Positions 55,910 to 62,189 of a stretch of DNA of 64,000 nt are shown piece by piece. Position 1 is the first letter of the stretch. Each line of letters begins with the position of its first letter. This DNA is from Clostridium hydrogenum (GTDB lineage Bacteria > Bacillota > Clostridia > Clostridiales > Clostridiaceae). Both the position numbers and the translations under genes were made by a program. The notes under the pieces are model-generated. The model was not told the DNA's origin. It did not search any database and saw only the letters and a list, made by a program, of their open reading frames with translations. The stretch covers positions 2,065,501 to 2,129,500 of the forward strand of contig NZ_JAEACT010000002.1 of NCBI RefSeq assembly GCF_021432385.1, written 5' to 3'.

Positions 55910-56258
55910 TGAAACATTCCACCTAACATAATAATTACCTTTACTATAAGCAAGATTATATTCGACAAAAATCCATTAAATCCTTTTTTTTTTAATAATT
56001 TATATTAAAATTTTTATCCTAGCATATTATTAGATTCTACATCCAGTTAATAAATCCTCTTTATCATTTATATCTTTTATATTTTACCCATTTAATAGTA
56101 AATTTTATTCTAAAATCCAAAAATAATGTTTTAAAACTTCTCTTTGCTCATAAATAAATTATTCTATACAAATATTTAATATCCTTTTTTTATATGTATA
56201 TTATAAAAAATTTTTTAATATCATATTTAATGAAGATAATTTTTAGGAAGTGCTAACT
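55910..56258. other. Divergent intergenic region, dnaG and CotS-like gene
   Basis: AT-rich, without repeats or extra genes that I can see. Promoters for both sides must lie here, but none stands out. Confidence 0.5.
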
Positions 56259-57323
56259 ATGATTGATAATAATCCTCCTTCTTCCCATATATTGTTGCCA
56301 TATGATGAAATAAAAAAATTTGTTTTACCTGAATACAACTTAGAAAATTCAATTATTGAACAAATAAAATTTAAAGATACTGATAAACAAAGAGCTGTTT
56401 ACAGCATAATTTCAGATTCAAAAAAATATTGTTTAAAAAAAGTATATTATAATAAAAATGACTTACTTTTTGTATATTCCGCAGCTGAATGGTTATACAG
56501 ATATAACATAAAAGTAACTAGGATACTACCAACTCAGAATAATTCACGTTTTGTTCTATATAACAATATGCTTTTTATCTTAATGCCCTGGATTGAAGGT
56601 AAAAAATGTGACTATAACAATCTTTCTGATATTTTAGTTTCAACAAAAAATCTTGCGCTAATGCATAAATTCACCAAAAACTTCATTCCAATTACCGGAA
56701 GTAATATTAGGTACGGGCTTGATGACATTTATGTATCTACAAAAAAACATTTTGACCAAATACTGGACTTTTATAATATTGCAAACAAAATAAATGATAA
56801 ATTTTCAAAAATACTTCTTGAAAATTCAGAGGAATGCATTGCCACTGCAAAAATAGCTTTAAAAGCTTCAAACAAAATACATCCTGAAAATCTAAAGAAG
56901 AGCTTATGCCATCTTGATTATGTTAACAAGAATCTAATATTTGATGACAATAATAATTTATGGGTTATTGATTTCGATAATTGTAAAATAGATTTTTCTG
57001 TACATGATTTATCTTATTCTTTAAGAAGAATATTGAAACGCGATGGAACCAACTGGGATAATGGAATTCTTATAAACACACTGAATGCTTATGAAAGTAT
57101 CAATGTACTTAACTTGGATGAATACTTATATATATTATCTTATCTAGCATTTCCCCAAAAATTTTGGAAGATATGCAAAGATTACTATAGGAACATAAAA
57201 AAATGTAATAAATCCTCATTCATAAATTTACTTAAAAGCAGTGTAAAATGTAAAAGTTCTCAATTAACCTTTGCTGAAAATTTTGCTAATTACATTAATG
57301 GTAAGTTTAATACTTACATTTAA
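56259..57323 (+). CDS. CotS-family spore coat / kinase-like protein
   Basis: The 354-aa protein (ATG 56259 after AGGA; a GTG at 56250 overlaps that site) has the CotS/YutH kinase-like fold. The N-lobe has KYCLKKVYYNK (about 61-71). MLFILMPWIEGKKCD is the hinge. The phosphotransferase-like loop LCHLDYVNKNLIF with NLWVIDFDNCKIDFSVHDLSYSLRR (about 228-262) gives HxDxxxxN and D-F-D. CotS proteins sit in the spore coat and some have sugar-kinase-like ancestry. It is close to a second protein kinase gene downstream. Confidence 0.85.
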   Translation: MIDNNPPSSHILLPYDEIKKFVLPEYNLENSIIEQIKFKDTDKQRAVYSIISDSKKYCLKKVYYNKNDLLFVYSAAEWLYRYNIKVTRILPTQNNSRFVLYNNMLFILMPWIEGKKCDYNNLSDILVSTKNLALMHKFTKNFIPITGSNIRYGLDDIYVSTKKHFDQILDFYNIANKINDKFSKILLENSEECIATAKIALKASNKIHPENLKKSLCHLDYVNKNLIFDDNNNLWVIDFDNCKIDFSVHDLSYSLRRILKRDGTNWDNGILINTLNAYESINVLNLDEYLYILSYLAFPQKFWKICKDYYRNIKKCNKSSFINLLKSSVKCKSSQLTFAENFANYINGKFNTYI

Positions 57324-57575: not shown

Positions 57576-58151
57576 CTACATATAGTAAATTTCATCAAAT
57601 ATGCCTTCTACAAATTTTTCAAAGTTTTCTCTTTGAGTATGATTATTACCTTGATATATTTTTTCTGACATCACTATACTATTTAGCTTATGTGCATCTA
57701 GTGAACTCATTTCTTTAAATTTATTAGTTTCATACAAATTTCTTAAAGTTTCACCTATCTTCAAAAGGCTTTCGTAATACCTTCCATTAGAAAACCCCCT
57801 AACCATAGTACTAGTCAAATGTTTCCTTGAAAAAAATAAAGATTTCGCAATCCATCCCTTATCTGCTGTTCCGTTTTTTGTGGTATTTTCCAAAACAAAA
57901 TTCAAATATTTTGTAAATTCCGTAAACCTTCCCGTACTAGTTTTTATACCAATAATAGGATACCATAGTCCCCTTATTTTACCACTGTTAGTTCCTGATG
58001 ATCTAAAATATGCTAAAGTCACTCTTTCTACTCCGTAATCATATTTAATACTTACATTAACAAGTCCAATCATTCTAAAATGCTTGACAGTATATAAATT
58101 AGCGCTAAAGCTTTCCGGATACATTTTTAATATCTCTATTGAATTTAACAC
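57576..58151 (-). CDS. Uncharacterised 191-aa protein downstream of the kinase gene
   Basis: I do not recognise a family. The GTG at 58151, 7 nt after GAGGAGG, is the best start; an upstream frame adds 20 residues without a ribosome site. The protein is soluble and basic with aromatic segments: GLWYPIIGIKTSTGRFTEFTKYLNFVLENTTKNG, then GWIAKSLFFSRKHLTSTMVRGFSNGRYYESL (about 75-155). No catalytic motif is obvious. Being third behind the RS-repeat and kinase genes suggests a linked job, for instance as kinase partner or structural protein. Confidence 0.6.
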   Translation of the reverse strand: MLNSIEILKMYPESFSANLYTVKHFRMIGLVNVSIKYDYGVERVTLAYFRSSGTNSGKIRGLWYPIIGIKTSTGRFTEFTKYLNFVLENTTKNGTADKGWIAKSLFFSRKHLTSTMVRGFSNGRYYESLLKIGETLRNLYETNKFKEMSSLDAHKLNSIVMSEKIYQGNNHTQRENFEKFVEGIFDEIYYM

Positions 58152-58290
58152 AATAAATACCTCCTCAATTATTCCTCCTATGCTTGTTATATAAATAAAA
58201 GGAGATGTCACATTAACAATTGATTCAGCCGCAATATTTAAGATTACGGTTAAACAATTTTTTAGTGCAACAACTCCTCTATATTCAATA

Positions 58291-59004
58291 TCAATTTATA
58301 TTTTTAATTTTTTCAAGCTGTTCTTTTATTTCTTCAATATTTCTATATCTTCCCTTAATATTCATTAACTTTTTTAAAAAAACTTCTTCTTCCTGATTTA
58401 AATCAAGTTCTTCATACCAAGGTCTATCTTGTGAATCGGTTACTTTATATGATGAATAATATAGATGAATTAAAAAATCACCGATAAACCAATAATCTAT
58501 ATCTTTTACATATCTTTTATTATTAATAATTCTCGCTAATCCAAAATCAATCAATGCTATATCTTTGTTTTTTTTCAATATTACATTAGGAACTCTAATA
58601 TCTCGGTGAACTATACCATTGTTGTGCAATATCTCAACTAATTCTAGAAGTTGCCACCCAATTTTATAAATTTCATCCCTACTAAATTCATATTTATCTA
58701 CAGTTAATAAATCTTCAAATACTTTTCCATCAATATATTCTAATATATAGCCTTCTCTATCTCCATCATTAAATTTAGATATAAATTTAGGAAATTTAGG
58801 ACTATCTAAAGCTTTCAATATTTTCTCTTCATAAAATAATTTTTCTCTAGTATCATGAAGCATTCTTTTTTTTAATTGTTTTATAACACATTTTTCATAT
58901 TTGCTATTACTTGCCAAATATGCAATTCCATATCTACCTTCACCTATTATTTTTAGAATTGAATATCCATTTATCTTTTCTCCAGTTTTATAATATCTAT
59001 CCAT
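58291..59004 (-). CDS. Small Ser/Thr protein kinase
   Basis: The 237-aa kinase has a glycine loop GEGRYGIAYLA (21-31), Lys42 in CVIKQLKK, a Glu at about 59-60, the catalytic loop IVHRDIRVPNVIL (Asp135, Asn140) and DFG at 153-155. All residues needed for phosphotransfer are present. It has no transmembrane or PASTA region, so it is a compact cytoplasmic kinase like YbdM/YrzF-type proteins. The activation segment is short. It starts 52 bp after the RS-repeat gene stop. Phosphorylation of the RS tail is a natural hypothesis. Confidence 0.88.
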   Translation of the reverse strand: MDRYYKTGEKINGYSILKIIGEGRYGIAYLASNSKYEKCVIKQLKKRMLHDTREKLFYEEKILKALDSPKFPKFISKFNDGDREGYILEYIDGKVFEDLLTVDKYEFSRDEIYKIGWQLLELVEILHNNGIVHRDIRVPNVILKKNKDIALIDFGLARIINNKRYVKDIDYWFIGDFLIHLYYSSYKVTDSQDRPWYEELDLNQEEEVFLKKLMNIKGRYRNIEEIKEQLEKIKNIN

Positions 59005-59056
59005 ATCAATAATCCTATAGCTATTTTATTTCAAATAACGTTATCGACTATATGAC

Positions 59057-59287
59057 CTACCAACTTCTAGATCTACTTCTTGATCTGCTTCTTGACCAAC
59101 TTCTTGATCTACTTCTTGATCTGCAACTTGACCAACTACTCCATCTACTTCTTGATCTGCAACTTGACCAACTTCTTGACCTACTTCTAGATCTGCTACT
59201 TGATCTACTTCTAGATCTGCAGCTTGACCTGCAGCTTAGTTTATAATAACTATGGCCATTATATGATTCAGTGATAAAAGAATCCAT
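59057..59287 (-). CDS. Arg/Ser-repeat protein, 76 aa, putative kinase substrate
   Basis: The ATG at 59287 lies 7 nt after AGAGGTG. Residues 1-17 (MDSFITESYNGHSYYKL) are normal. The remaining 59 residues use only Ser, Arg, Cys and Trp, mostly as RS dipeptides, with 4 Cys and 5 Trp. The DNA is a 12-bp tandem repeat (agatcaagaagt type) with variants. Such an RS tail recalls CotG-type spore-coat proteins and RS domains phosphorylated by kinases. A possible sigma-K promoter lies upstream. It is first in a cluster with a kinase. The opposite strand also has an open frame, but without a ribosome site. Confidence 0.68.
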   Translation of the reverse strand: MDSFITESYNGHSYYKLSCRSSCRSRSRSSSRSRSRSRSWSSCRSRSRWSSWSSCRSRSRSRSWSRSRSRSRSRSW

Positions 59288-59340
59288 AAATAACACCTCT
59301 TCTGTACTTTTTAAATCATTATGATTTATTTTTACAATTA

Positions 59341-59369
59341 TATAATATGTTCCATCTAATCATTAAGTT
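59341..59369 (-). promoter_or_regulatory. Possible sigma-K-type promoter before the RS-repeat gene
   Basis: Minus-strand AACT (59366-59369), 16-bp spacer and CATATTATA (59341-59349) match the mother-cell sigma-K pattern mACm / CATAnnnTA. AT-rich DNA makes chance matches common. Confidence 0.4.
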
Positions 59370-59494
59370 ACTTATATAGAAATAAATAATAAAAAAATAG
59401 AGTATGCAACTTAAAATCACTAGTAAAGTTAAGTTACAATACTCTATGTTTTCACAATATACTCTAATTAAAATTTCAAATTAGAATTATACCA

Positions 59495-62128
59495 TTATTG
59501 TCTTGGATTTTTAACTTGAGCCTGTGCAGCTGCAAGTCTTGCAAGTGGTACTCTAAATGGTGAGCAAGAAACATAATCAAGACCAACATCGTGGCAAAAT
59601 TCTACTGAAGATGGATCTCCACCATGTTCACCACAAATACCTAACTCTAAATCTGGTCTTGTTTTCCTTCCAAGTTCTGCAGCCATTTTAACGAGTTTAC
59701 CTACACCTACTTGGTCGAGTTTTGCAAATGGATCATATTCATATATTTTTCTTTCATAATAGTCATTCAAGAACTTTCCTGCATCATCTCTTGAGAAACC
59801 AAAGGTCATTTGTGTTAAGTCATTGGTTCCAAATGAGAAGAATTCAGCTTCTTTAGCTATTTCATCAGCTGTAAGTGCTGCTCTTGGAATTTCTATCATA
59901 GTTCCAACTTTATATTTTAAAGAAACTCCTTCTTTTTTAATTATTTCATCGGCTGTCTTAACAACAACATCTTTAACATATTTTAATTCTTTTACTTCAC
60001 CTGCTAAAGGTATCATTATTTGTGGTTCAATATTAAGTCCTTTTCTCCTATTTACATCTATTGCAGCTTCAATTACAGCTGTTGTTTGCATTTCAGCTAT
60101 CTCAGGATATGATACACAAAGTCTGCAGCCTCTGTGGCCCATCATTGGGTTAAATTCATGTAGGGATAACACAGTTGTTTTAAGTTCATCAAAAGTAATT
60201 CCCATTTCCTTAGCTAAAGCGTCTATATCTTCATCATTTGTTGGCAAGAATTCATGTAGAGGTGGATCCAAAAATCTTATAGTAACCGGTCTACCTTCCA
60301 TGGCTTCATAAATTCCAGTAAAGTCTTCTCGCTGCATTGGAAGTAATTTTGCAAGTGCTTTCTTTCTCTGTTCAACAGTTTTAGCAAGTATCATTTCTCT
60401 AACTGCAGGTATTCTATCTTCATCAAAGAACATATGCTCAGTTCTGCAAAGTCCTACTCCCTCAGCTCCAAAGTTAACTGCCTGCCTAGCATCTTTTGGA
60501 GTATCTGCATTAGTCTTTACTTTAAGTTTTCTTATTTCATCAGCCCAACCCATGAAGGTTCCAAAATTTCCACCAACCTCTGGCGCTGAAGTTTTAATTT
60601 TTTCACCGTATACATTTCCTGTACTTCCGTCTAGAGAAATATAATCGCCCTCGTGAAATACCTTTCCATCTACCTCAAAGCTTTTTTCTTCTTCATTCAC
60701 TTTAATAGCTCCACAGCCTGCAACACAACAAGTTCCCATACCTCTTGCTACAACTGCTGCATGGGATGTCATACCACCCCTAACTGTGAGTATACCTTCT
60801 GAAGAAACCATTCCTTCTATATCTTCCGGTGATGTTTCACGTCTTACTAATACTACCTTCTCACCACTTTCATGATGTGCTTTAGCATCTTCAGCTGTAA
60901 AATAAACCCTTCCGCAAGCTGCACCTGGGGAAGCTGGAAGACCTTTTGCTATGGCTTTTGCATCTTTAAGTCCTTCTTTGTCAAAAGCAGGATGTAATAA
61001 CGCTTCAAGTTGTTTAGGCTCAACTTTAAGTATTGCTTCTTCCTTGGTGAGTAATCCTTCATTAACTAAATCAACTGCTATTTTCAATGCAGCCTGAGCA
61101 GTTCTCTTACCGTTTCTAGTTTGTAAGAAATATAATTTACCTTGTTCTATAGTAAATTCCATATCTTGCATATCTCTATAATGGTTTTCAAGTTTCTTAG
61201 CTATATCCATAAATTGTTTATAGCACTCTGGCAAATCTTGTTCCAATTTAACAATTGGCTGAGGTGTTCTTATTCCAGCAACAACATCCTCACCTTGTGC
61301 ATTTATAAGATATTCTCCAAATATTCTCTTTTCTCCTATTGCAGGATCTCTTGTGAAAGCAACTCCCGTTCCTGAAGTATTTCCCATATTTCCAAATACC
61401 ATTGATTGAACATTTACTGCTGTTCCCCAATCTCCTGGTATATCGTTTAACCTTCTATAAACTATTGCTCTTGGATTATCCCATGATCTAAATACAGCAG
61501 TTACTGCCTCTATAAGCTGTTCTTTAGGATCCTCTGGAAAATCCTTTCCTATTTCATTTTTATAAACATCCTTAAATTGATTGAGAATATTTTTTAAATC
61601 TTCAGTATCTAATTCAGTATCATATTTTACACATTTTTTCTCTTTTACTTCATCTAAAACTTTCTCAAATTTTTTACTATCTATTCCCATAACGACATCT
61701 GAAAACATCTGTACAAATCTTCTATAGGAGTCATAAGCAAATCTTTCATTATTTGTTAGCTTTGCAACTGCACCTACAGTTTTGTCATTAAGCCCCAAGT
61801 TAAGTATTGTATCCATCATTCCTGGCATTGATACTCTTGCTCCTGATCTAACTGAAACAAGAAGTGGATTGTCTTCACAGCCAAAATTTTTTCCTGTACT
61901 TTCCTCAAGTTTTTTCATATGTTCATTAATTTCTTCAAGTATCTCATTAGATATGTTCTTTCCATCCTCATAGTATTTTACACATGCTTCTGTAGTTACA
62001 GTAAAACCTTGAGGAACAGGTATTCCAAGGTTTGTCATCTCTGCAAGATTCGCACCTTTACCACCTAATAAATTCCTCATGCCTGCATTACCCTCATTAA
62101 ATAAGTAAACATACTTTTTTGTTGCCAT
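59495..62128 (-). CDS. ppdK: Pyruvate, phosphate dikinase
   Basis: Start at ATG 62128 (MATKKYVYLFNEGNAGM) after AAGGGGATG gives 877 aa. The N-terminal ATP-grasp domain (LLGGKGANLAEMTNLGIPVPQGF, VRSGARVSMPGMMDTILNLGLND) is followed by the phosphohistidine domain GGMTSHAAVVARGMGTCCV (catalytic His about 455) and the TIM barrel with LCRTEHMFF, RFLDPPLHEFLP and GICGEHGGDP (Cys about 830). It interconverts ATP + pyruvate + Pi with AMP + PEP + PPi, linking PEP and pyruvate pools in anaerobes. It is a single gene. Confidence 0.97.
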   Translation of the reverse strand: MATKKYVYLFNEGNAGMRNLLGGKGANLAEMTNLGIPVPQGFTVTTEACVKYYEDGKNISNEILEEINEHMKKLEESTGKNFGCEDNPLLVSVRSGARVSMPGMMDTILNLGLNDKTVGAVAKLTNNERFAYDSYRRFVQMFSDVVMGIDSKKFEKVLDEVKEKKCVKYDTELDTEDLKNILNQFKDVYKNEIGKDFPEDPKEQLIEAVTAVFRSWDNPRAIVYRRLNDIPGDWGTAVNVQSMVFGNMGNTSGTGVAFTRDPAIGEKRIFGEYLINAQGEDVVAGIRTPQPIVKLEQDLPECYKQFMDIAKKLENHYRDMQDMEFTIEQGKLYFLQTRNGKRTAQAALKIAVDLVNEGLLTKEEAILKVEPKQLEALLHPAFDKEGLKDAKAIAKGLPASPGAACGRVYFTAEDAKAHHESGEKVVLVRRETSPEDIEGMVSSEGILTVRGGMTSHAAVVARGMGTCCVAGCGAIKVNEEEKSFEVDGKVFHEGDYISLDGSTGNVYGEKIKTSAPEVGGNFGTFMGWADEIRKLKVKTNADTPKDARQAVNFGAEGVGLCRTEHMFFDEDRIPAVREMILAKTVEQRKKALAKLLPMQREDFTGIYEAMEGRPVTIRFLDPPLHEFLPTNDEDIDALAKEMGITFDELKTTVLSLHEFNPMMGHRGCRLCVSYPEIAEMQTTAVIEAAIDVNRRKGLNIEPQIMIPLAGEVKELKYVKDVVVKTADEIIKKEGVSLKYKVGTMIEIPRAALTADEIAKEAEFFSFGTNDLTQMTFGFSRDDAGKFLNDYYERKIYEYDPFAKLDQVGVGKLVKMAAELGRKTRPDLELGICGEHGGDPSSVEFCHDVGLDYVSCSPFRVPLARLAAAQAQVKNPRQ

Positions 62129-62189
62129 AGTAAACATCCCCTTCAATTGTTTTGTCGCCGTAATTAACTTATAAATTATACAGCTTTTA

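Follow-up and report, generated by a model that had tools for sequence, protein, structure and literature searches.

A conserved cassette of a Hanks-type kinase, a small serine-comb partner and a third protein, with a predicted role in spore-coat assembly

Comparison of related loci indicates that three neighbouring genes of the window, a 64-kb stretch of DNA belonging to a 5.5-Mb genome, are a real and conserved cassette made of a Hanks-type Ser/Thr kinase, a small partner protein and a constant third companion. We consider it probable that this cassette, placed behind a sigma-K-type promoter, works in late spore-coat assembly, where the kinase would bind a GHxYYK-like motif of the partner and phosphorylate the comb of serines that follows it. 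The sequences show directly that the genes are linked, that the motif recurs, that serines stand on alternate positions, that the catalytic residues are intact, that the upstream region matches a sigma-K-type promoter and that a sister clade has a fusion of the partner to the kinase. An earlier note on this DNA had proposed a kinase-substrate cassette. What stands of this proposal is that the kinase would act in sporulation and have a partner of its own, as suggested by the linkage, the motif, the relocation of the partner, the sister-clade fusion and the sigma-K-type promoter. Its wording in terms of RS does not stand.

All three genes are on the minus strand. They are flanked by a gene at 59495-62146, which was named ppdK-like by eye, and by a CotS-like gene at 56250-57323. 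The first of them (59057-59287) encodes a protein of 76 amino acids with a net charge of +19. Its N-terminal part, MDSFITESYNGHSYYKL, is followed by 59 residues (18-76) that are exclusively Ser, Arg, Cys and Trp, as had been described earlier. The N-terminal motif, ESYNGHSYYK, is encoded at 59240-59269 and the tail at 59060-59236. An ATG start is preferred for this reading frame because the GTG at position 59296, given in the mechanical list of ORFs, falls inside the ribosome-binding site AGAGGTG (59294-59300). The kinase gene (58291-59004) and the gene of the third protein, 191 amino acids long (57576-58151), follow on the same strand. In the gap between the ppdK-like gene and the cassette, a stem-loop followed by a run of T was read on the minus strand (59391-59447); it is likely a terminator parting the two transcription units. 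The CotS-like gene that had been noticed nearby is real (TIGR02906, E 1.2e-78). As a member of the CotS/CotI/YsxE group, its product recalls the cassette by being spore-coat-related and kinase-like. However, it matches the APH family PF01636, is encoded on the opposite strand and is not the cassette kinase; the argument does not need it.

The second gene encodes a complete protein kinase of 237 amino acids, in agreement with the first description. Its score against PF00069 is 98.1 bits for a cut-off of 31.7, and residues G21, G23, G26, K42, E59, D135, N140, D153, F154 and G155 do not vary among the 39 family members that were aligned. The AlphaFold2 model has a pLDDT of 91.9, and the best Foldseek match is PknB. 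In both the alignment and the model, the kinase core forms one block without a long insert. PF08757, the CotH family, is absent from the Pfam matches of the kinase, which the earlier note had called unrelated to CotH. Identity with the anti-phage kinase MAD6 was rejected (NCBIfam score of 65.9 for a cut-off of 460). With the PADLOC models of another anti-phage kinase, PD-T4-6, which give no cut-off, kinase-domain matches reach 89 bits. Identity with LanKC or LanL was also rejected, the scores (43-52 bits) being far below the cut-offs (575-650) and limited to the kinase part. Together with the presence of Cys in the window tail, these weak matches to the LanKC and LanL kinase domains could evoke a lanthipeptide-like modification of a Ser/Cys peptide, in which the kinase and the third protein would phosphorylate, eliminate and cyclise. 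We regard such a pathway as very improbable, given not only these scores but also the lack of Cys in 16 of the 24 tails compared below and the lack of any lyase or cyclase match for the third protein in family profile searches.

Scanning the collection with the kinase returned six loci, five of them from five Clostridium species. These five have the same gene order, in which a small Ser-rich ORF is followed by the kinase gene and then by that of the third protein. The sixth locus (L010) has a different kinase (23% identity). Clostridium beijerinckii is among the species with relatives of both the kinase and the third protein. A wider homologue search, as the earlier note had advised for the 191-aa protein, found the third protein in 23 of the 225 genomes of the order. 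In a class sample, it occurs in 5 of 391 genomes, including one that does not belong to the family. A group of close kinases (E 2.1e-104 or better) is present in these 23 genomes and in no others of the order, and a wide gap lies between this group and the kinases that come next, whose E values are 5e-74 or worse. The 23 genomes of the order and the one outside the family give 24 cassette loci, which include the five species of the collection scan and which share ancestry. In all 24, the gene of the third protein is the direct same-strand neighbour of the kinase gene, with a gap of -4 to 101 bases (mechanical starts), and a motif-bearing small partner is present. The small ORF is thus conserved in relatives and the neighbours of the kinase are the same elsewhere, two points on which a contrary outcome had been named by the earlier note as a refutation. 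The partner is upstream of the kinase in 19 loci and downstream of the third gene in the other five (L036, L037, L038, L039 and L043). In the kinase tree, the cassette members group in a single clade (support 97/100; 98% of bootstrap trees). Because the five loci with a downstream partner fall at at least two places of the kinase tree, the partner has moved within the cassette and was nevertheless retained.

With 23 genomes out of 225, the distribution of the cassette is patchy, and the cassette is thus no core system of the coat. SpoIVA was found in 21 of the 23 cassette genomes. This says little, however, because almost all genomes of the order (213 of 225) have SpoIVA. A literature search outside subscription journals and preprints, for which the motif was not a search subject, found no published account of this cassette.

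The small partner is characterised by the motif G[HYCN]x[YHRD]Y, observed near the N-terminus in 24/24 cassette loci. A longer test pattern of the motif matched 23 of these 24 partners. Within the first 60 residues of the other ORFs of 40-200 amino acids in the same loci, it matched 1 of 1441; among long ORFs, it matched 2 of 392. Because the motif was derived from the cassette loci themselves, its count there is not independent; the phylum sample alone, described below, came after its definition. The possibility was considered that the small reading frame is no gene and is open by chance within tandemly repeated DNA. The underlying DNA is indeed a tandem array with periods of 12 and 36 bases (73-83% matches), and the opposite strand is also open (64-aa ORF, 59052-59246). 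We nevertheless find this explanation hardly credible. The motif and the position beside the kinase are kept in all 24 loci despite quite different tails, which argues that the S/R frame is more than chance, and within the N-terminal 18 codons four codon changes with respect to the nearest relative lead to one amino-acid change. In its own genome, the 76-aa protein alone is matched by the partner profile, showing that it is single copy.

Serine accounts for at least 30% of the tail that follows the motif in 21 of the 24 partners and mostly occupies alternate residues. Below this value are L039 (29%) and L041 and L042 (14% each). The last two are related cassettes having the partner motif and no Ser-rich tail, and they provide a natural test of the role of the tail. 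The number of i/i+2 serine pairs was matched by at most 10 of 1000 shuffles in 18 of the 24 partners, and SYSR is the C-terminal end in 13. Arg exceeds 13% of the tail in six partners only (the window protein, L023, L025, L030, L031 and L040). In the other 18, where it reaches at most 13%, reading of the tails finds Lys, Asn, Tyr, Asp or Gly common between the serines. This variation of the intervening residues indicates that the conserved design is a serine comb, of which RS is one version; judged by the 24 tails, the RS repeat is a lineage-specific form of the comb. The earlier idea of an RS tail as the substrate is therefore not supported in that form, in view of the low Arg content of 18 tails and of the absence of a Ser-rich tail in L041 and L042.

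The composition of the window protein could still point to nucleic-acid handling in the late mother cell, in which a basic RS-like peptide would bind RNA or DNA and would be released by the kinase, as for eukaryotic SR proteins. The tail is RS-rich, the whole protein is strongly basic, and its sole Pfam match, a weak one (E 0.073), is to the splicing-associated family PF12871. This idea seems improbable to us because Arg is scarce in 18 of the 24 partners and because family profile searches found no RNA-binding domain in the cassette. Alternatively, the small protein could be a localiser or an activator. In that case, the kinase would be bound by the motif and would phosphorylate other coat proteins, and the repetitive tail would adhere to nucleic acid or to the surface of the spore. 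Consistent with this, the motif is kept without a Ser-rich tail in L041 and L042, zinc ribbons or His-rich tails are found instead in some sister partners, and some fused forms have the motif with little Ser-rich tail. On the other hand, the Ser-rich tail is kept in 21 of the 24 cassettes while its other residues change freely, as would be expected of a Ser/Thr kinase target more than of an anchor. A localiser or activator is therefore judged unlikely, and phosphorylation of the serine comb is retained as the preferred reading.

A sigma-K-like promoter had been reported ahead of the first gene, and the corresponding sequence, AC-N17-CATATTATA, is located at 59341-59368 on the minus strand. As compared to the sigma-K consensus of C. 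taeniosporum, given as [A/C]AC[A/C] N16 CATA N3 TA in the available part of PMC5749712, it is a match to the loose form alone, with one mismatch to the strict consensus. The scan covered 150 bases upstream of each partner, with a loose form defined by AC N16-18. The strict consensus was found for 19/24 cassette partners, 0/25 partners of the sister kinases described below and 1/387 control ORFs. The loose form was found for 22/24, 4/25 and 9/387, respectively. In contrast, a TTGAC-type sigma-A pattern was present for 10/25 sister partners, 0/24 cassettes and 11/387 controls. This split predicts that the cassette branch is controlled in the late mother cell and that at least part of the sister branch is vegetative.

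In the proposed mechanism, the N-terminal motif would be the docking site that tethers the tail, presumed to be disordered, to the kinase. The tail, as the substrate, would then be modified serine after serine, many serines becoming phosphorylated, and the product would reside in the spore surface. On Arg- or Lys-rich tails, each phosphate would shift the strongly basic chain (+19 in the window protein) to a mixed or acidic one, and this shift could control how the chain packs in the coat. The third protein always accompanies the cassette kinase and would most likely act as an adaptor or as a binder of the modified protein, this being the least certain step. Searches with this protein, one of them at E 0.001, gave no family match and no solved-structure match; its AlphaFold2 model has a pLDDT of 89.4.

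Phosphorylation of spore-coat proteins is best known from CotH in Bacillus, and the available part of PMC7821199 describes CotH with CotB and CotG in the outer coat of Bacillus subtilis, Ser/Lys/Arg repeats carrying many phosphoserines (30 in CotB at one time point). As in the cassette, the kinase gene is there beside the gene of a Ser-rich repeat protein, and multi-site serine phosphorylation of a coat repeat, shown for CotH, would be a second common feature (PMC7821199). However, CotH belongs to PF08757 and is a distant relative of the Fam20C kinases, whereas the cassette kinase belongs to PF00069. Unlike in the CotH system, the partner encoded in the cassette is very small, carries a motif at its N-terminus and is accompanied by the third protein in 24/24 loci. 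CotH has no match in the genome of the window. It was found in 7 of the 23 cassette genomes as compared to 46 of the 202 others of the order, with no match in 172 of the 225. Across these genomes, CotH and the cassette neither complement nor exclude each other.

Arg/Ser dipeptides are the target of the eukaryotic SR protein kinases (SRPK), and an RS tract is present in the window protein. These kinases resemble the cassette kinase by a Hanks-type fold, which here would also act on a long Ser/Arg tract, and perhaps by a docking site outside this tract (PMC8065462 and PMC10878513, both in part). Their kinase core is split by a large spacer insert according to the same portion of PMC8065462, whereas that of the cassette kinase is not; in addition, the partner family shows no conservation of Arg, and no RNA-recognition domain was found. 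In a survey of RS domains, SR-related proteins are reported in about 25-30% of archaea and bacteria, the bacterial RS domains being linked, within one protein, to domains of the helicase, DEAD-box or kinase type (PMC9479744, available in part). The window protein resembles these domains in having S+R of at least 70%. This value is reached in some 20-residue stretch by 17 of the 24 partners, window protein included (best stretch 0.95), the stretch length being chosen in the present analysis, so that the rules of the survey, available in part, may differ. Pairs made of a separate kinase and partner, as in the cassette, do not appear in the available portion of that account.

If the proposed mechanism is true, the kinase and its partner would be a bacterial counterpart of the kinase-substrate pairs of Bacillus spores and of human splicing proteins. 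A Hanks-type kinase with a serine-comb partner would give some CotH-less clostridia another route to CotH-type chemistry, and RS-like repeats and their kinases would have arisen apart from splicing. The choice of substrate by bacterial Hanks-type kinases is a long-standing difficulty. A testable rule for the selection of a single substrate by a small kinase of this kind is suggested by the fused genes and the recurrence of the motif.

The order contains 26 further, sister kinase genes, of which 25 have a small partner with a motif variant directly upstream, ending within 9 bases of the mechanical start of the kinase. In these partners, the motif near the N-terminus is GSxYYK, GSxHYK or GSxHYQ, and the C-terminus is either a KSSWS-like end or, in five of them, a stretch with CxxC pairs. 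The partner of L083, from the phylum sample, is akin to the CxxC sister partners and matches double zinc ribbon families. In the 26th sister, L072 (L072:6224-7108), the motif and a Ser run are fused in frame at the N-terminus of the kinase ORF. Among 120 listed of the 211 relatives of L072, the part ahead of the glycine loop exceeds 40 residues in 33. The motif pattern is matched by 10 of these long N-termini, and four others (P0243, P0244, P0260 and P0265) are near to it by eye; 13 begin with a Ser run without the motif and six look unrelated, also by eye.

In the phylum sample (398 genomes), nine genomes besides that of the window have a family kinase at E 1e-30. A partner with a motif variant is present directly upstream of eight of the nine kinases, L088, the one with the weakest score, having no partner. 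In the genome of the window, none of the three other Pkinase genes has such a partner, about 1.4 kb upstream of them being covered. The partners and motif variants of the related kinases support the kinase-substrate idea and extend it to a family of kinases that have partners of their own. The cassette may be one branch of a widespread Bacillota family in which each kinase has its own small partner, a model to which we give an even chance. It would be a leader-guided protein-phosphorylation system, the partner being recognised through its GHxYYK/GSxYYK leader motif and its fast-changing tail being modified or used. Its branches would comprise a sporulation branch (serine comb and new third protein), vegetative branches (His/Arg-rich or zinc-ribbon partners) and self-contained fusions.

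Several further observations were made on these related loci. At L087 (L087:3095-4834), one of the eight partner-bearing loci of the phylum sample, a distant family kinase has a 54-aa partner directly upstream (GHKHYK, ending SRSYSS), and a Spo0M gene (PF07070, E 4.2e-77) overlaps downstream. In the predicted kinases P0141, P0198, P0203, P0204, P0207, P0210, P0211, P0215, P0216, P0221 and P0232, all of them relatives, the long N-terminus looks like a different frame of the Ser-rich gene that gene calling has merged with the kinase; in such cases the small gene is likely missed in annotation. The kinase pairs of L060, L062, L064, L065, L068, L074 and L086 lie near cation-transporter-like genes (P-type ATPase or cation diffusion facilitator, by eye). 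A link to metals is possible because of these neighbours and because sister partners are often His-rich or have zinc ribbons. Finally, TTGATAAT occurs upstream of 11/25 sister partners (loci L054-L079) as compared to 6/387 controls and may be an operator; in L054, it is part of the palindrome ATTATCAATTGATAAT.
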